A stretch of 64,000 nt of DNA from Blautia sp. Lineage in GTDB: Bacteria > Bacillota > Clostridia > Lachnospirales > Lachnospiraceae. Below are positions 35,341 through 42,634 of the stretch, in pieces. Position numbers and translations under genes: made by a program. Numbering within the stretch: position 1 is the first letter of the stretch; every line of letters begins with the position of its first letter. The stretch lies in assembly GCA_022770365.1 (NCBI GenBank), contig JALEHU010000005.1, positions 1 through 64,000 of the forward strand, read 5' to 3'. The notes below the pieces were generated by a model. That model was not told the DNA's origin and did no database searches. It was given only the letters and a program-made list of their open reading frames with translations.

Positions 35341-38300
35341 TCAGTTAAAGTTTACAGGTATGGTGTTTTTTACAACGTCGTTGTGAAGATAGCGGTCACA
35401 GCGTGCTTTCTTATTGACAAATGTTATGGAAGCATGATTGTTTACAGCAGTCAAAGTGACATTTCCATATGCAATTTCTTCCGGCAATAATCCATAAGAC
35501 GGTGAAGCACCTTTTGTAACCGTTACATTCGATGTGTTCGCAAAGACATTCTCAAGATAATAGTACAATGCAGATTTTTCATAAACACGGTACGTTCCTG
35601 CCGGAACATTACGGAATGTAATCTGAAGCACAGCATAGCCGCTGTCATCCACAGTATATCCATCCTGAGAAAAGCAGACATAATTTTCGTATTTTCGATG
35701 ATTCCCTTTCGCATCCGTTCCTTCCACTACAAAACAAAAAACAGGATTTCCATGCGCCCAGATAATCTCATTTTCCCGGATCTTCTTTATGATCACAATT
35801 TCCCCAAGAGCAGGTCTGTCAGGTTCATTGACTGCTTCAAAAATCCCTGGTTCCGTATTGTCCTCTGTTAAAACAAATTCTTTTTCCCAGGAACCAATAT
35901 AACCTGATGGTGCCTTTGTCTCAGTTACTTTGAATTTCCCTTCATTTTTTGGAGTGATTTCCAGATCTTTTGAACAGTATAACTGACTGGTTTCATCGAA
36001 CTGAGTTTTTGCACTTTCACCAAGGGTGTTTTCGTATTTTCCGGTATCTTTATTATATTGAAAGATGGTAAATTCCGCATCTTTCAGAACAGTTCCTGTC
36101 TCTGACGCAGTCTTTCGGATTTTGATCCGTCCTTTTACATAAACCACAGGCACATTTTCCACTGTAAATTGAAGCCGCTGATTATCCTTGCAAAGATCAA
36201 TTTCCTGTTCAAACCCACCTGTGTATCCATCCGGAACTCTCGTCTCAACAATCTTATATCGTCCCGCATTTTTTTCTGTGATATCCAGTACTTCACTATA
36301 ATATTTACCATCCAACGCATGATAAGTCAGTAATTTTCCGGTGTTCTCATAGGAAGTATTTATGCTGTTCCACTCATAGATAGTAAATTCTGCATCTTTA
36401 AGAATATTCTTCGTTACAGAATCCAGCTTGACTATTTCCACCCTTTTGGGTCCGATATCATTCTCTGCCGTAAACTCGAACAGCTCTTCCTGTCCCATCT
36501 TACTGAGTATAAACTCCTTGCTGAAAGTTCCGGTGAAGCCTTTGGGATTCTGTGTTTCTCTTACCAGGAATTTCCCCTGGTTATCCGCTGTATACCGGAT
36601 AGTTCCCGATTCATAACGTTTTACAGAAGAATTATAGGTAAGATTAACACCGCCGGTATAAGAATTACTGCTTTTGCTCCAGGAATAAAGCGTAAACACC
36701 GCATCCGACAAAATCAGCTGCGTATCAGTTATCACTTTTTTAATGGAAACTCTTCCATAAGAATCCGGAATCTCACTTACGGATACTACTGTCTCAGCAT
36801 TCTGAGTCACCACAGCAGAATGCCTTGAGTTATCAAGTACATATTTTTCTGCTTCCGTCCCTGCTTTGGCATCTGTCTCAATGAGATAATAACTGCCTGC
36901 AGGCACATAGAGAAATTTCAGTTCTCCATTCTGATCCGTATACCCTTCATCCACTTTTTCGTCTTTCTTAAAAACTGTCACACCATTGGAAACAATATTT
37001 ACTGCAGCTTTGAGCTGATATCCTGCTCCTTCAATTTTTTCTTCAGCATTATTGTCTGCTGTTTTCTTAAGCAGAATACTTCCGCATGGAGAAGGACTCA
37101 ACGTCATCGACAATGTCTCCCTGGCTCCTTCATAGTAATATGTTCCCAGATCCTGATAATTGCTTCCATTCATCTGCACATCACCGCTGATGCAGATATA
37201 CTGTACCGGTTTTAAAAGTGCCGTGTAACTGAATTTTTTGGAAGCTGTGGTATTGTATGGTAAAGCAAACCGTATTTTTGCACCTTTATACAATGTGACA
37301 CTTTTCCCTTTGCCCAGAACCCGGGGATTACTCAGACCTCTCGTCGAGTAGTCATCCGCACTCGTCCAATACCCCAGTACCCAGGTGTCTGTGGATGCCC
37401 TGGTGATCTTGATTCCGTTTTTTGCCTGACTGGCTGTCAGCGTATAAACAGAAGAAATCTGGACACCTTTTGTCATGCCGGTCCATCCAAGAGATGCCGG
37501 GACAGTTCTGTAATAGGTAAGATTCCCTTTCATATCTTTTAAAGATACAATATCTCCATTAGAATTCCTGCCGTTGAATTTAACATCTATTACATTGGGA
37601 ATTGTAAGGGAAGTGAGTTTTGTGATCCATCTGTTCAATCCCACATGCTCGCATTCTGCAGCCGTTGCGCCTCCAACATCACCGGAATATATTTTACTCA
37701 GTGCATAATGTGTCAGTACATAACGATTGGACATTTTTGACCAGTCACAATGGCTGCAGGTGGGGTCATAAGTATCACAGATATCTGCAGGTCCTCCATA
37801 GCCATAATACAGAATTTTCTTTATGGATGAATTCGTCAGAGCTTTGATGGCTTCCTCTTTCAGCGTCATCGAGGGAGTCATTGGTCCATTTTTACTTGCA
37901 TTCAGACAATAAACAGGAGCTTTGTGTGATACTCCTTCGTCATCCGTATATTTGATTTCTCTGTAGGAAGTTCCCAGATATGTACTGTGATTACCGTCAT
38001 TAACCCAGATTTCATCCATATTCAGATAATCACTCCGAAGCATGGTAAACTTACTTGTCTGGGCAGCAAGGCTGACTCCTTCATCTGATGATACATTCAT
38101 TACGGTAGCAGCACTCATAAGAGACACATTTTCCACAGGTGCAAGAGCAATGACTTCCCCTGCTTCAATATCTTCGATCAGGTCCTCTTCTTCCTCTGTT
38201 TCTGGCTGAAGAAGTCCGGCATTTTCTTCGGAGAAGAGTACAAAATCATACTCATCAGGAAATTCATCGTTACCAAAATAAGTTTCTTCCTCTGTTTCAT

Positions 38301-38559
38301 CAGCAAAAGTAAACGCATCTCGATCACTTAATGTTACAGAATTTTCTTCAGAATCTGTACTCTCAGTCGAACCTTCTCCGGATATCGTATCCGTTTCTTT
38401 ATTTGACGTTTCCTCTTGTTCCGCATTTTCATTCACTTCCGTATTCTCCTGTATGCCTGTGAATTCCACAATGTCAGTTTCAGCTGCCAGTACAGACATT
38501 GAGATCGGAGCGGCTGCCACAGCTGCCGCCAGCAAAAGACTTAATACTCTCTTTTTCAC
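35341..38559 (-). CDS. Large secreted surface protein: thioester-like domain plus Cna-B repeats
   Basis: 1072 residues from a GTG start with AAGGAG 10 bases upstream; it overlaps the previous stop by 4 bases. A signal peptide (VLSLLLAAAVAAAPISMSVLA) is followed by an acidic Ser/Thr/Glu-rich stretch to about residue 150. Residues ~170-500 resemble a Cys-Gln thioester adhesion domain: APVYCLN puts the likely thioester Cys at 218, and YYGYGG fits, but the position expected for the partner Gln appears as His284 (VLTHYALS). From ~505 on, five Cna-B/SpaA-like modules begin near GSILLKKTA, GRVSIKKVI, KRVEIVKLD, GRIKIRKTA and GEIVIIKKI, with E-T motifs typical of Lys-Asn/Asp isopeptide modules. No C-terminal LPXTG motif or helix; it ends in a charged tail, so attachment to the cell is unexplained. 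Confidence 0.85.
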   Translation of the reverse strand: MKKRVLSLLLAAAVAAAPISMSVLAAETDIVEFTGIQENTEVNENAEQEETSNKETDTISGEGSTESTDSEENSVTLSDRDAFTFADETEEETYFGNDEFPDEYDFVLFSEENAGLLQPETEEEEDLIEDIEAGEVIALAPVENVSLMSAATVMNVSSDEGVSLAAQTSKFTMLRSDYLNMDEIWVNDGNHSTYLGTSYREIKYTDDEGVSHKAPVYCLNASKNGPMTPSMTLKEEAIKALTNSSIKKILYYGYGGPADICDTYDPTCSHCDWSKMSNRYVLTHYALSKIYSGDVGGATAAECEHVGLNRWITKLTSLTIPNVIDVKFNGRNSNGDIVSLKDMKGNLTYYRTVPASLGWTGMTKGVQISSVYTLTASQAKNGIKITRASTDTWVLGYWTSADDYSTRGLSNPRVLGKGKSVTLYKGAKIRFALPYNTTASKKFSYTALLKPVQYICISGDVQMNGSNYQDLGTYYYEGARETLSMTLSPSPCGSILLKKTADNNAEEKIEGAGYQLKAAVNIVSNGVTVFKKDEKVDEGYTDQNGELKFLYVPAGSYYLIETDAKAGTEAEKYVLDNSRHSAVVTQNAETVVSVSEIPDSYGRVSIKKVITDTQLILSDAVFTLYSWSKSSNSYTGGVNLTYNSSVKRYESGTIRYTADNQGKFLVRETQNPKGFTGTFSKEFILSKMGQEELFEFTAENDIGPKRVEIVKLDSVTKNILKDAEFTIYEWNSINTSYENTGKLLTYHALDGKYYSEVLDITEKNAGRYKIVETRVPDGYTGGFEQEIDLCKDNQRLQFTVENVPVVYVKGRIKIRKTASETGTVLKDAEFTIFQYNKDTGKYENTLGESAKTQFDETSQLYCSKDLEITPKNEGKFKVTETKAPSGYIGSWEKEFVLTEDNTEPGIFEAVNEPDRPALGEIVIIKKIRENEIIWAHGNPVFCFVVEGTDAKGNHRKYENYVCFSQDGYTVDDSGYAVLQITFRNVPAGTYRVYEKSALYYYLENVFANTSNVTVTKGASPSYGLLPEEIAYGNVTLTAVNNHASITFVNKKARCDRYLHNDVVKNTIPVNFN

Positions 38560-39770
38560 TGTCGCACATCTCCTTTCCGAATAATCAGAACAGTCGTACC
38601 CGTCAGCATTGATATAATTGCCATTACAAGAAGGCTCAGTAAAGGAGTTTCATCTGCTGTTTTTACCGGTTCGGCAGTGTCTGTTCCATTCCGGTAACCG
38701 GAAGAGCCGGATGTCTGTACCCGATTTTCTTCTGGAATGACTGATGGTTCTGCGTCATCTTCATAGACAGAGAAATACCACTTCACAGCAGCGTCTCTAA
38801 GCGCATATGCATTTTTTAATTCAGCAGGCACAGATACTGTGAATTCCATAGTTCCTCCCTCGCCCGGCTGAAACACTCCAAGCGAAACTTCTTCTTTTAA
38901 TTCTTCTGCAAGAAGATTTCCTGAATAAATAGCTTTTCCATCCATAGATATTGTTAATTGAATCTTTCTCAACAGATCCATCCTGTCTTCTCTCTGGCAT
39001 ACGATCCCCGTATGAAAAAAGATTTCCGCAGGTTTTTTTGTCGTATTTAGAATGTCTATAGAATCCCGGAATGTATCACCCGGCATAGCTGTCCTGAAAT
39101 TTGCAAAGAAATCATCCGGAACCGCCAGAAGCTTATGTGCATTTCCGCTAAATTCCACAGATAATTCAACTTTTTTCTTTTCTGAAACAACTGTTCCATT
39201 TTCTTCATGGATACAAAGCTCAATCTCCTGATCTCCCCATGGAGACATGGCATTAAAATCCGGCTCAAAATTTGCTGCCTGTATAGCATCAGCCTGAATA
39301 TCTATTGTCAGCTTCTGATCAGAATGGGATTCATTCCATTCTTTTGGAATCTCCACAGCCTCAAATAGTGTTGCCGATTTTCCATAATCAAGGATTTCCG
39401 TATAGTAATAATACTCACCTTTTTTTACCCATTGAGCAGGAACACCCAGAATATTACTTTCAGACAGTCCCTCCAGTTCCTCTTTGTCCTGTTCGTAAGA
39501 AATCCTTGCTCTGATCCAGCAGGGCATGGCATGATTCGTAATGCGCGGGATTTTGGAGATTACATCACCCGGCAGAACAATCCTGGAGTTTGTATAGGAA
39601 ATCTCGGTTCCCTCTTTCACTTCATACTCTTTCAAACTGATATTCACATCACCTGTCGCTATGTGATTTGTTACTGTTACAATGTCTGAAAAATATCCAA
39701 ATGTTGCGGAAACACAGGCGATCAGCATTGCCGCAGTACATACAGCCAGTCGGTTTTTCCGTATTTTCAA
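38556..39770 (-). CDS. TasA/camelysin-like surface protein with C-terminal membrane anchor
   Basis: 404 residues from the TTG at 39770, chosen because AAGGAGG lies about 9 bases upstream; the ATG at 39824 would overlap the previous gene by 37 bases and has no ribosome site. The SipW-type signal KIRKNRLAVCTAAMLIACVS ends at ATFGYFSD, followed by HIATGDVNISLKE, the pattern of TasA/camelysin proteins. The middle is beta-rich. The C-terminus has PVKTADETP, a hydrophobic helix LLSLLVMAIISMLTGTTVLII and RKGDVRQ, resembling VKTGD-type clostridial wall anchors with Gly changed to Ala. It probably forms or anchors extracellular fibres. The next gene overlaps it by 4 bases. Confidence 0.82.
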   Translation of the reverse strand: MKIRKNRLAVCTAAMLIACVSATFGYFSDIVTVTNHIATGDVNISLKEYEVKEGTEISYTNSRIVLPGDVISKIPRITNHAMPCWIRARISYEQDKEELEGLSESNILGVPAQWVKKGEYYYYTEILDYGKSATLFEAVEIPKEWNESHSDQKLTIDIQADAIQAANFEPDFNAMSPWGDQEIELCIHEENGTVVSEKKKVELSVEFSGNAHKLLAVPDDFFANFRTAMPGDTFRDSIDILNTTKKPAEIFFHTGIVCQREDRMDLLRKIQLTISMDGKAIYSGNLLAEELKEEVSLGVFQPGEGGTMEFTVSVPAELKNAYALRDAAVKWYFSVYEDDAEPSVIPEENRVQTSGSSGYRNGTDTAEPVKTADETPLLSLLVMAIISMLTGTTVLIIRKGDVRQ

Positions 39771-39787
39771 AAAGGTCTCCCTCCTTC

Positions 39788-40357
39788 CTAAATACCTGAT
39801 ATCGGATTCAGAGAGTAATTCCATGCTGACTCATAGTCTTTGAATTCCCCGCACTCCACGGATTCCTCATACACATGGATTTCAAAATCCTTTATTTTAT
39901 CCTGATAGAGGGTATCAATTTTGTCCCGGTCAATGGTAAATCCGGTAAACAAAGGAGTAGTGGACTGACCTTCTTTCAGCAGATGCCTGTAATAATAGTA
40001 TCCATCACTGCTGTTATATTTCCAGTTCGCAGTATCCAGCCCAAGCAATGCAACACCTTTTCCGATATCGTAGTTTGAATAAGACACAGATACCCGCACA
40101 TAGCAGTCCACATTGAAAGCATTTTCTGCTGAAGATACATTCTTTACCCATACCGTTTTTTTGTATTCCGGTTTTCTTTCGTCACCCGGATCTGATGGTT
40201 CAGGGAAATCTTCTTCTATCTGTGACTCATTTCTTCCTACAGCCACCCTGTTTTTGTGGTAATCATAATCGCTGAAATATGCCGCAGTTCCGCCAATACA
40301 CAAAATCCCTGCCAGTGCTGCAGCACATACGGATTCAGGTATCGTTCTTCTTCTCAT
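39788..40357 (-). CDS. SipW-dependent TasA-like protein 2
   Basis: 189 residues. The signal sequence SVCAAALAGILCIGGTAAYFSD has the A-Y-F-S-D end typical of substrates of ER-type signal peptidase SipW. The mature part includes NRVAVGRNES, KKTVWVKNVSSAENAFNVD and CYVRVSVSYSN, a beta-sandwich pattern as in camelysin/TasA, and a repeated aromatic stretch DGYYYYRHLL. It overlaps the upstream gene by 4 bases (ATGA), with GGGGTGA as ribosome site. Likely an extracellular matrix or minor fibre subunit. Confidence 0.82.
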   Translation of the reverse strand: MRRRTIPESVCAAALAGILCIGGTAAYFSDYDYHKNRVAVGRNESQIEEDFPEPSDPGDERKPEYKKTVWVKNVSSAENAFNVDCYVRVSVSYSNYDIGKGVALLGLDTANWKYNSSDGYYYYRHLLKEGQSTTPLFTGFTIDRDKIDTLYQDKIKDFEIHVYEESVECGEFKDYESAWNYSLNPISGI

Positions 40358-41001
40358 TTAGTCACCCCGCCGGATTGTCCATTATTCTGCTGCACATATT
40401 TCTTATAAGCCTCAGCCGCCTGCTGCACTACAGTTCCTTCATCTCCGCCGGTATTCGCTGTCTGGATTGCATAAGCTCTCACAGGTATGTCAAACTGCTG
40501 TGTATCAATCTGTCCTTCAATTACATTGGCAAATGTCACCATATCAAACAGTGTAGTCGTTGTCTGACCCGGTTTCAGCACTTTATTGTATGCAAAGGTA
40601 TAGACTCTGCTGGTTCCGGAAGTTTTTGCCTCCAGCTGCGTCCAGTCTGCTTTTTTAGTAAAGCTGAAAAGTTCCATATTCTTTTTGTCAATACGATTGC
40701 CGGAGGCATCTGCTGTGATAACATCTGCCGTCGGGATGGATACTTCCAGATACACAAAAGCATCATTGATTCCTGCATTTTTTACCTGCGGATCTTTCCT
40801 GATCTGCTGAGTCGGCTCAATTTTCGTATTATCCTCCGGTTTCCAGTTGGGCTCTTCCAGCTCAATATCTACTTTTCCTACGGTAAACTCATTTACAGTT
40901 TTGTCATAGTCTGTCAGGTATGCCATAGTTCCGCCCACTGCAAGGGCTGCTGCCGCACAGCATACTGCTGTTGTCCTGATGATCGTTTTTTTAATTTTCA
41001 T
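40354..41001 (-). CDS. SipW-dependent TasA-like protein 1
   Basis: 215 residues. The signal part TTAVCCAAAALAVGGTMAYLTD ends with the A-Y-L-T-D motif of SipW-processed TasA-family proteins, then KTVNEFTVGKVDIELEEPNW, where T-V-G-K-V-D-I matches the conserved start of the mature camelysin-like domain. Later parts, KDPQVKNAGINDAFVYLEVSIP and QFDIPVRAYAIQTAN, fit the same fold. A Gln/Gly-rich tail ends the protein. It starts by 4-base overlap with the signal peptidase gene. Best candidate for the main fibre subunit. Confidence 0.87.
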   Translation of the reverse strand: MKIKKTIIRTTAVCCAAAALAVGGTMAYLTDYDKTVNEFTVGKVDIELEEPNWKPEDNTKIEPTQQIRKDPQVKNAGINDAFVYLEVSIPTADVITADASGNRIDKKNMELFSFTKKADWTQLEAKTSGTSRVYTFAYNKVLKPGQTTTTLFDMVTFANVIEGQIDTQQFDIPVRAYAIQTANTGGDEGTVVQQAAEAYKKYVQQNNGQSGGVTK

Positions 41002-41504
41002 ATGACCTTTCCGCGCGTTTCTTCGCGCTCTCCTTTTCTTTTTTTATTGTTTTCATGAAAAACGGGCTTTGATTCTGCAAGAAAGAGCAGGATGTATACT
41101 ACAATGACCAGAAACAGTATCATCCTGTTCTGAAGATAAGAAACGACATAGCCTAAGAAAGGCAAAGAAAAACAGACCGTTCCCACTACGCGGGAAGGAA
41201 GAACTGTAACTGCGTCTTCTTCCAGATTTGCATCTCCCTTTGTCACATAAAAGCCGTCCTCAAGACGGACAACACGATGCGTGACCGTTGTTTTTTCGAT
41301 ACGATATGTAATCACATCGCCTGCTTTTGGTTTTCTTTTTCTCATATCTGTAAAAACCATTCCTCCCGCAGGGATTTCCGGCTCCATTGAGCCTGATAAT
41401 ACCGCATAAGGGCAGATTCCCGCCATACGGACCAGAAGAAGAGTCAGACCAAAGAATATGATAATTCCCATAAGCCCGTTTAAAATCCACCGAAAGAATT
41501 TCAT
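40998..41504 (-). CDS. sipW: SipW-type (ER-type) signal peptidase I
   Basis: 168 residues from the ATG at 41504 with AAGGAG 5 bases upstream; longer readings extend into the untranslated leader. An N-terminal helix LMGIIIFFGLTLLLVRMAG is followed by the catalytic Ser in VLSGSMEPEIPAGG and by VTHRVVRL, where the ER-type enzymes have His instead of the bacterial Lys. A second helix near the C-terminus (MILFLVIVVYILLFLA) anchors the enzyme. SipW cuts the signal peptides of TasA-like proteins, which are the next three genes, all linked by 4-base overlaps or short gaps. Confidence 0.92.
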   Translation of the reverse strand: MKFFRWILNGLMGIIIFFGLTLLLVRMAGICPYAVLSGSMEPEIPAGGMVFTDMRKRKPKAGDVITYRIEKTTVTHRVVRLEDGFYVTKGDANLEEDAVTVLPSRVVGTVCFSLPFLGYVVSYLQNRMILFLVIVVYILLFLAESKPVFHENNKKRKGEREETRGKVI

Positions 41505-41910
41505 TGCCGCTCCTTGTATTAGAATATTTACTCTGTCAGTAATTTCAACGTACTCCACCCAGGCGGAGAACGTCTGCAATATTTTTTCTCCAAAAAATCC
41601 CTTCCTTTCGAAAAACATCAAAAACAAATTCGATTTTGCCTGATAACAGGCATTACTAATTTTTTGCCTGACAACAGGCATTATCGAATAAAAAACGATC
41701 AGGGATTTTATAATGAAACAAAAAACGGGAATATAAAAATAGTAAGACTTTAATTAAATTAGAGAATTTTCAGCGAATTGCTTTGTATGGCTGATGATTA
41801 ACAGAGAAATTTAAAGAAACATTCCAAACGTTTTGATACAAAAAACCGGGAACCGGAGTAAAACAGAATACTTTCCTAAACTATATGCAATTATCAAAGA
41901 ACTTTGAGAT
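41505..41910 (-). other. Long untranslated leader of the sipW operon
   Basis: From the predicted start point near 41910 to the sipW ATG there are about 400 bases with no convincing gene. The stretch is A/T-rich and contains two tandem GC-rich palindromes (41637-41680), a 4-bp CCGG hairpin followed by six T (minus strand, ends near 41840) and a TCAAAG/CTTTGA palindrome at the start point. No known riboswitch class was recognised. Confidence 0.5.
41637..41680. repeat. Two tandem 16-bp palindromes in the sipW leader
   Basis: TGCCTG-N4-CAGGCA occurs at 41637-41652 and again at 41665-41680, a period of 28 bases, with the flanks (TTT before, TT after) also shared. As DNA they could be paired operators; as RNA each forms a 6-bp hairpin with a four-base loop. 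Confidence 0.75.
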
Positions 41911-41916
41911 GTTCTA

Positions 41917-41945
41917 ATATTACCTTCCTTAAGAATAAAAGTCAA
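41917..41945 (-). promoter_or_regulatory. Promoter of the sipW/TasA/Cna-B operon with start-point palindrome
   Basis: Minus strand TTGACT (41940-41945), 17-base spacer, TAATAT (41917-41922). The perfect inverted repeat TCAAAG-AA-CTTTGA at 41894-41907 covers the region just after the predicted start and would suit a repressor. Confidence 0.65.
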
Positions 41946-41990
41946 TCCATTTCCTGGTTTTTCCGCAAAGAATCGTTCGCCATAATTCGA

Positions 41991-42021
41991 CAAAAATCGG
42001 GAGCCGCAAAGTACGGCTCCC
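41991..42021 (-). terminator. Terminator of the second ABC importer / URO-D operon
   Basis: GGGAGCCG (41999-42006) pairs with CGGCTCCC (42014-42021) around 7 bases; on the minus strand the stem is followed by GATTTTTG. It lies 30 bases past the decayed URO-D gene. Confidence 0.82.
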
Positions 42022-42050: not shown

Positions 42051-42634
42051 TTATAAAGACCTCACGATTCTCCCGACTTCTTTCAGCTTTTCATACGTAA
42101 CTCCGGGAGGACAGCTGTCACTGTTAGCCAGGATAAATTTCCTTCCTTTTGACATAGAGCAAAGGTAATTTACACGTTCCTCTAATTCGTTCATATTACA
42201 TTGCTCATAAAATGTCGGTTCAATACCGCCAATCAATCCTTTATCATTGTCAAGAAGAGTAAACGCCTCGTCAAGATCAATATTTCCGGTTGGCGGAGGA
42301 GAAATGGATTCTACCATATCAATCGCTGTCTTGTTCATCAATGGAAGTAAATCTCTTATCTGCCCACATGCATGATGTATCAGATACTTATCGTGTTTAT
42401 GTATCATCTCACCCCATTTATGGATTACCGGAGCTGTATATTTTCTAAAGAAATCAGGACTGATATTGGTTGTTGAACTGTCTTCCCAGAAGATAAAACC
42501 TTCCGCCTCGGAATTAACAGAAATTTCCACCGACCTGACAGATACTTTTTCCATCACGGCGAGACATTCTTCCACTACTTCCGGAAAATCATACAACGCA
42601 ATCTTTGTTTCGGCGTTAATTCATCCTTTATCAT
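42051..42634 (-). pseudogene. Decayed URO-D family methyltransferase gene with internal deletion
   Basis: An intact start region (AAAGGAG, then ATG at 42634 encoding MIKDELTPKQRL, the typical URO-D N-terminus) runs after 12 codons into a sequence that fits only in another frame. That second frame, readable from 42596 to 42051 (about 181 residues), encodes the C-terminal half of a uroporphyrinogen decarboxylase/MtaA-like protein: LYDFPEVVEECLAVMEK, TTNISPDFFRKYTAPVI, the zinc-type motif HHACGQ, SISPPPTGNIDLDEAF and LIGGIEP. About 150-180 residues of the usual N-terminal half are missing. In frame one, a stop comes after 19 residues. It is the last gene of the second ABC importer operon. A sequencing artefact is unlikely given the size of the loss. 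Confidence 0.8.

Follow-up and report, generated by a model that had tools for sequence, protein, structure and literature searches.

How is a large secreted adhesin without a sorting signal held at the surface of a Gram-positive cell? This question is raised by an operon in the 64,000-nucleotide stretch of Blautia sp. contig JALEHU010000005.1 analysed here (the window), in which genes for a SipW-type signal peptidase, three TasA-like proteins (TasA1, TasA2 and TasA3) and a 1072-residue adhesin form one minus-strand unit framed by two terminator hairpins (Table 1). An earlier note on this DNA had proposed a composite fibre with an adhesive tip, whose tip protein lacks an LPXTG motif and could be held by the anchored TasA-like protein. 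On re-reading the sequence, all five genes were found at the position given there, on the minus strand, and no LPXTG motif was found at the adhesin C-end. The new point of the present analysis is that the adhesin appears to end in a copy of the TasA-like N-terminal donor strand rather than in an LPXTG signal, which refines the proposed mode of attachment: the C-terminus of the adhesin would itself be a TasA-type donor strand. The operon probably encodes a donor-strand fibre into which the adhesin is plugged by its C-terminal strand, as the tip, with TasA3 as the base. Within this model, the docking of the strand is the firmest part and the tip position the weakest.

The C-terminal tail

The tail of the window adhesin, DRYLHNDVVKNTIPVNFN, follows the last Cna-B strand (F.N.K) and forms a short C-terminal end. 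Anchoring on its Asn gives an ungapped alignment to the N-terminal segment of TasA-like proteins, in a register with an aromatic residue or Leu at −8, Ser or Thr at −7, His or Asp at −6, Val or Ile at −2, Asn at 0, Ile, Val or Leu at +2 (Phe in TasA1) and Val, Leu or Ile at +4. Residues F29 and F39 of Bacillus subtilis TasA presumably fall at −8 and +2 of this register. When widely diverged modules were aligned without anchoring (26 of 27 picked modules; L109 was excluded), the tail Asn was one of five columns invariant in 26/26. The Asn is also present in 52 of 54 adhesin tails, although that search itself requires Asn and counts two loci twice.

The similarity was scored in two ways. In a comparison of profile against profile, the tail came first of 165 windows in one ungapped register (16.5 versus 7.0 for the runner-up, z 5.0), and in a 13-column version none of 2000 column-permuted profiles reached the tail score. 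With a matrix of the TasA strand, the best window of the last 40 residues was among the top three of its own protein in 37 of 54 adhesins and first in 15, each protein offering 454–1515 windows. The controls for this score were 160 open reading frames (ORFs) with a maximum of 4.3 bits, from which L044, L090 and L165 had been removed as tips (uncleaned maximum 8.9). Of 101 adjacent large ORFs, 43 passed the 99% control level, and in none of these 43 was the strand motif found at the N-end.

Two individual loci differ in their tails. L103 has none, and in the gene at 5473-9459 of L095 (the same gene as in L092) the donor-like motif is internal (about residue 936), with a further ~380 residues C-terminal to it.

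Conservation of the operon

A profile of the adhesin C-terminal module (A2; four sequences, tail included) was run on 397 genomes of the window's family and matched 32 places in 29 of them. All 32 matches adjoin one or more TasA-like genes and 31 also adjoin sipW, the exception being L114, where TasA1 is the only one; the adhesin as a chance neighbour was ruled out on this count. Eight matches cover the domain part only, six of them with a clear tail (L094, L097, L099, L107, L108 and L110), one with a poor tail (L109) and one with the internal motif (L095). A contig scan gave 50 loci, mainly from Blautia, Fusicatenibacter and other Lachnospiraceae. The retrieved piece holds both sipW and TasA-like genes in 42 of them, contig ends truncate seven, and one (L055) is an orphan tip gene. 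The arrangement is not peculiar to the window locus.

The orphan tip gene of L055 (6611-10489) encodes a SpaA domain and the tail YSHNDVVRNTVTF, and its metagenome-assembled genome holds a full operon elsewhere (L058); it is perhaps an alternative tip.

All loci were then compared after dropping duplicates (L073, L095, L097, L113, L115, L120 and L011, with L085 kept in place of L011) and a further 23 loci whose fetched piece does not hold both SipW and TasA, which left 97. The commonest gene order among them is that of the window, sipW-TasA1-TasA2-TasA3-adhesin (28/97), followed by TasA1-TasA2-TasA3-sipW-adhesin (6). A tip, defined by a match of the A3 profile at the C-end or a matrix score of at least 4.97, is present in 78 of the 97 loci, a fraction biased upward since L043-L120 were picked for adhesin homology.

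A fairer sample was obtained by starting from TasA. TasA1 occurs in 55 of the 397 family genomes, namely 28 of the 29 module-positive genomes and 27 genomes without the A2 module; 32 loci from these 27 genomes and two from module-positive genomes make up a TasA-first set of 34. An adjacent large protein qualifies as a tip in 11 of the 34, nine by strand score and two (L164 and L176) by the module profile only, and ten of the 11 lie in 10 of the 27 genomes. In L147 and L152 the tip looks right by eye only. No tip was found in the remaining 21 loci, some of which are minimal, some cut by a contig end and seven without sipW or TasA in a stricter scan. Since only part of the TasA-first loci have a tip, the adhesin gene is common but not universal. 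The earlier note had asked whether homologous loci lack the Cna-B gene throughout, which is not so; its composite fibre with an adhesive tip is well supported, the whole set being conserved and distant versions carrying tip-adhesin domains.

Among the loci not chosen by the module, together with those from other families, 12 of 21 adjacent ORFs of at least 800 amino acids (aa) beat all 160 controls with 8.5-20.5 bits, and 11 of the 21 exceed even the uncleaned control maximum of 8.9. Examples of such tails are TGYFSDTNVIVNRV (L157), SWFRDETETDNFFTV (L138), KWLSDVASVVNEFTK (L156) and TGYFHNTDSVFNIF (L145). A search across the phylum matched 11 of 398 genomes, one of them that of the window. Six of the 11 loci fetched there are SipW/TasA loci or pieces of them (L135-L140), with clear tails in L135, L136, L138 and L140 and weak ones in L137 and L139. 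The five matches outside SipW/TasA loci end in PQTG (L134), in LPKTG (L141) or in neither (L133, L142 and L143).

The tails sit on heads of several kinds. In nine of the 34 TasA-first loci the tails found by score are on other heads (VWA and others), and VWA occurs in 10 of the 13 scanned tips beyond the Blautia, Fusicatenibacter and TED types (L100, L145, L156, L102, L105, L106, L107, L108, L110, L138, L140, L151 and L152; the exceptions are L107, L108 and L110). A GBS104-like tip-pilin Ig domain was found in L138 and L140 and an ice-binding-like adhesive domain in L152, and four further tips (L144, L157, L162 and L165) have SpaA or no family. All PA14 matches in the scanned tips were below the cut-off.

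Subunits and proposed assembly

The peptidase, scanned as the longer frame, matches TIGR02228 (ER/archaeal-type signal peptidase) with 81.2 bits (cut-off 51.85) and Pfam S26 with 26.0 bits (cut-off 22.9); its score for the Bacillus SipW equivalog NF046067 is 74.2 bits, under the cut-off of 190. With PF12389/Peptidase_M73 (Pfam cut-off 22.5), TasA1 passes at 31.8 bits, and TasA2 (19.0) and TasA3 (19.5) fall short. The SipW-dependent signal domain TIGR04088 (cut-off 19) is recognised in TasA1 (32.8) and TasA2 (19.9), with TasA3 just short (17.4). None of the three reaches the cut-off of 60 for the BsaA family TIGR04090 (TasA2 48.8, TasA1 42.0, TasA3 15.4). A sequence search for solved structures returned none matching TasA1 or the adhesin, and only a chance-level match for the C-terminal module.

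The N-terminal donor-strand motif is present in 58 of 64 TasA1, 59 of 62 TasA2 and 51 of 77 TasA3-type proteins. Residues N37, E50 and K69 of TasA1 are kept in 63/63 sequences and N36, E49, K67 and E165 of TasA2 in 56/56, and conservation in TasA3 is weaker (Lys 52/63, Glu 53/63). In many relatives TasA3 ends in a motif of the VKTGD or PKTGD type (T389 and G390 each in 54/63), followed by a hydrophobic stretch (52/60) and basic residues.

These features suggest the following assembly. SipW would cut the signal peptide off the shaft subunits TasA1 and TasA2 and so free their N-terminal strand, which would then complete the sheet of the next subunit, as is known for B. subtilis TasA. Because the adhesin lacks a TasA domain and its signal peptide looks ordinary, it would possess no N-terminal donor strand. 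Its last ~15 residues would instead insert into a TasA-like subunit, whose groove is open. The adhesin would thereby be a donor-only cap at the start or tip of the fibre, similar to TapA except that its strand is C-terminal and its head adhesive, and this attachment would need no sortase. TasA3 would be the acceptor at the cell end, consistent with the absence of the donor motif from part of its relatives and the KTG and hydrophobic end of many. The layout of the operon, its conservation, the likeness of the tail and the tip-type domains in relatives are shown directly; it is the docking, the tip position and the base role of TasA3 that we infer here.

A covalent version may also be considered, in which the donor-strand Asn and the invariant Lys and Glu of TasA1 and TasA2 would, speculatively, form an inter-subunit isopeptide that locks tip and shaft. 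Such a covalent fibre should keep the Asn, Lys and Glu in its shaft subunits, as TasA1 and TasA2 do, TasA3 being weaker in this respect. This conservation, the resistance of BsaA polymers and the isopeptide proposed for archaeal threads (see below) together suggest the covalent version. In its widest form, such fibres would be widespread among Gram-positive bacteria and self-locking through an isopeptide between the invariant Asn of each strand and the invariant Lys of the TasA-like subunit that receives it, the strand of the tip adhesin included, giving a sortase-free counterpart of the pilus with interchangeable tips on one plug; this generalisation is tentative and somewhat doubtful.

Alternative explanations

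Several observations weigh against a donor-strand fibre with a plugged-in tip. With 2.5 bits, the tail of the window adhesin stays under the 95% control level (2.95) and ranks second of 1019 windows in its protein; it is not significant by itself, and the family has to carry the case. Eight of the 43 high-scoring ORFs (L043, L045, L060, L062, L077, L089, L098 and L099) owe their best score to an internal Cna-B stretch that lies 51-60 residues before the end rather than to the tail, as does the top control (L044 with 8.9 bits, also a tip), so that the matrix is not fully specific. Across 75 loci, the tails are no nearer to the TasA strands of their own locus than to those of others. The B. subtilis TasA residue aligned with the Asn is apparently not Asn. 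The module profile contains the tail and so makes tails easier to find. No tip by the above definition is present in 19 of the 97 SipW/TasA loci, and the L055 tip gene has no SipW or TasA genes within 20 kb. A donor-like strand is still present in the window TasA3, the presumed base, and the invariance of Lys and Glu may reflect a structural role instead of a bond.

In one alternative explanation, the tail is just the strand that closes the C-terminal Cna-B-like domain, its likeness to TasA being coincidental and the adhesin loosely held or released. In its favour, the window tail is not significant by itself, and internal Cna-B stretches reach 9.9 bits with the same strand matrix. However, the domain has its own final strand (F.N.K) ahead of the tail, the tail recurs in loci not chosen by the module (the 12 of 21 ORFs with 8.5-20.5 bits), and the permuted profiles (0/2000) argue against coincidence, which makes this explanation very improbable. 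The tail could also be a signal that SipW, or a dedicated secretion factor, recognises or cleaves, and that resembles TasA since the TasA segments adjoin the SipW site. The motif that the tail shares with TasA indeed overlaps the NCBI 'cognate SipW' domain TIGR04088, and sipW adjoins 31 of the 32 module matches. However, what precedes the tail is a Cna-B strand plus a polar linker rather than a hydrophobic signal core, the tail lies at the C-end or within ~50 residues of it, and its likeness to TasA extends to N+2 and N+4, beyond the cleavage site; such a signal is given equally little credence.

A more serious alternative accepts the adhesin as a donor-strand partner but places it near the cell, or regards it as only an assembly chaperone or nucleator similar to TapA, and not as a displayed tip. 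The accessible parts of two reports (PMC9674648, PMC10151520) describe TapA as a donor-only initiator, and the fibre may have either polarity relative to the cell. However, the heads are long (~600-2000 aa), those of distant loci have tip-adhesin domains (VWA, GBS104-like Ig), and the anchor-like end belongs to TasA3, so that this alternative is considered unlikely. The donor-strand fibre with the adhesin at its tip remains the preferred explanation.

Comparison with known systems

Sortase-assembled pili carry tip adhesins with VWA or thioester domains, such as GBS104, Cpa and RrgA, and a base protein with a sorting signal. The present system resembles them in its VWA, thioester and Cna-B tip heads and in a base with a sorting-like signal. 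In contrast, the tip here has no LPXTG and the window operon no pilin sortase, and strand insertion is proposed in their place.

A close published counterpart is B. subtilis TasA, whose residues 28-38 enter the next subunit, with F29 and F39 making hydrophobic contacts (PMC9674648, as far as the accessible text goes). The donor strands of TasA and a similar N-terminus of TapA have been published (accessible parts of PMC9674648 and PMC10151520). As judged from these parts, the B. subtilis TasA/TapA/SipW system shares with the present one a SipW-type peptidase, TasA/camelysin subunits with an N-terminal donor strand and a donor-only accessory protein. The present system differs from it in that its accessory protein is a large adhesin of several domains whose donor-like strand is C-terminal, that it has three TasA-like subunits, of which one ends like a sorting signal in many relatives, and that the strands have an invariant Asn.

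In Clostridium perfringens, BsaA polymers resist sodium dodecyl sulfate, boiling and formic acid, and the nearby sortase gene srtB is not needed for polymerisation (PMC7395162, accessible portion). The sipW-bsaABCRSD operon likewise combines SipW with the BsaA matrix protein, and TasA1 and TasA2 match TIGR04090 below its cut-off. However, that portion of the paper describes no tip adhesin with a donor-like tail (PMC7395162), BsaB, BsaC and BsaD being outside the comparison. The archaeal thread filament is also a donor-strand fibre, for which an isopeptide bond between subunits and a cap protein have been proposed (PMC9715654, in the part available), all three of which have a parallel in the present model. 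It differs in being an archaeal protein with N-terminal strands, and no adhesin with a C-terminal strand is described in that part (PMC9715654). As far as the available excerpts go, CapP of Bacillus cereus (PMC13082335) belongs to a different system, and PMC7616799 names TasA in its references only. In a literature search without preprints and with few subscription papers, no C-terminal donor strand on a TasA-fibre adhesin was recognised in the titles and abstracts among the matches listed.

If the proposed arrangement is true, it would account for the display of large LPXTG-less adhesins in gut Lachnospiraceae (such as Blautia and Fusicatenibacter), and TasA-type 'matrix fibres' would become adhesive pili. 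It would also supply a simple search rule for tip adhesins of other Bacillota, namely to look beside sipW for a large secreted protein that ends in a TasA-like strand, and the plug might be usable as a short, modular, sortase-independent coupling tag.

The adhesin and the sortase question

The earlier description of the adhesin as a thioester-like/Cna-B protein is borne out by its domains, with TED_2 at 47.4 bits (cut-off 27) and SpaA at 120 bits over five stretches; at the position of the C-terminal module, DUF7601 reaches 24.9 bits in the relative L010, under the cut-off of 27. In the TED domain, Cys218 is kept. However, the position of the TQxA motif, which we take to hold the thioester-forming Gln, reads THYA (His284; 37708-37710, minus strand), and the replacement of this Gln makes a Cys-Gln thioester doubtful. 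Where a simple pattern locates the motif in relatives, TH occurs in nine and TQ in nine; one clade may have lost or altered its thioester, with Cys kept but THxA in place of TQxA.

An adhesin ending in a sortase signal was ruled out, such an end being found neither in the window protein nor, by a pattern search for LPXTG-like C-termini, in any of the 101 adjacent large ORFs. The system had been described as lacking a sortase, which is correct for the window operon, but one sortase is encoded elsewhere in the genome and candidates lie near related clusters. Candidates with a TLxTC motif (TLSTC) lie no more than 6 kb from the cluster in 11 of the 97 loci (L010, L065, L066, L068, L070, L072, L075, L091, L100, L102 and L105); one of the 11 was checked and is a sortase by Pfam. 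These candidates perhaps serve the PKTG-like base protein TasA3. Given the sorting-signal-like end of TasA3 in many relatives, a sortase may still act at the base.

Features of the locus

Table 1. Coordinates of the operon and its elements in the window
Feature	Positions	Strand	Remarks
Terminator-type hairpin before the unit	42022-41998	-	z -5.6
TTTGTCGAA box	41986..41994	-	5' of promoter; 2 in window versus 0.76 expected
Sigma-70-like promoter, TTGACT-17-TAATAT	41917..41945	-	~410 bases 5' of sipW
SipW-type signal peptidase	40998..41504	-	ATG 41504 with good ribosome site; in-frame ORF 41681-40998
TasA1, TasA/BsaA-like, putative shaft subunit (donor and acceptor)	40354..41001	-	PF12389 31.8 bits
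TasA1 putative donor-strand segment after SipW signal, AYLTDYDKTVNEFTVG	40876..40923	-	Donor role by homology to B. subtilis TasA
TasA2, second TasA/BsaA-like subunit	39788..40357	-	TIGR04090 48.8 bits, below cut-off 60
TasA2 putative donor-strand segment, AYFSDYDYHKNRVAVG	40235..40282	-	Alignment with TasA-type segments
TasA3, TasA-like, putative base subunit	38556..39824	-	Custom hidden Markov model 591 bits (TasA3 itself among seeds); Pfam below cut-off
TasA3 donor-like segment, GYFSDIVTVTNHIATG	39651..39698	-	Missing in some lineages
TasA3 sorting-signal-like C-terminal end	38559..38666	-	VKTAD, hydrophobic stretch, basic end
Putative tip adhesin, 1072 residues	35341..38559	-	GTG start; signal peptide, TED_2, SpaA/Cna-B, DUF7601-like C-terminal module
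C-terminal donor-strand-like tail, DRYLHNDVVKNTIPVNFN	35344..35397	-	N1065 invariant
Terminator-like hairpin closing the operon	~35312-35265	-	z -5.0

The genes had been described as joined by 4-base overlaps or short gaps. Three junctions are indeed 4-base overlaps, but TasA2 and TasA3 overlap by 37 bases if TasA3 starts at ATG 39824, or are separated by 17 bases if it starts at TTG 39770. Four weaker terminator-like matches lie on the same strand, three in sipW (overlapping or close together) and one in TasA3, so that the transcript may end early. The promoter reported earlier, with its ~400-nucleotide leader, is present and lies in a block also found 5' of sipW in five relatives, but matches to the pattern are at chance level (16 found versus 17.4 in shuffles, standard deviation 4.5). 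The promoter match as evidence on its own was dropped, the pattern being no commoner than in shuffles.

The TTTGTCGAA box, which resembles the 0A-box (Spo0A box), is of a type that occurs two or more times in 19 of 100 shuffles. A TTTTGTCGAAC box lies ~380-430 bases 5' of sipW in L043 (3567), L044 (3755), L045 (3939) and L046 (4041), and control of the operon with sporulation or biofilm formation is possible from these boxes. An Rfam scan of the operon returned no family except one chance-level match. The URO-D ORF 5' of the operon (42051-42596, minus strand) matches only profile positions 169-344 of 346, and its N-terminal half seems to be missing. The sipW leader (41630-41685, minus strand) holds two near-identical 14-base palindromes, GCCTGTTGTCAGGC and GCCTGTTATCAGGC, which can pair into a strong structure (z -5.4); one copy, partly imperfect, is recognisable in L043-L045.

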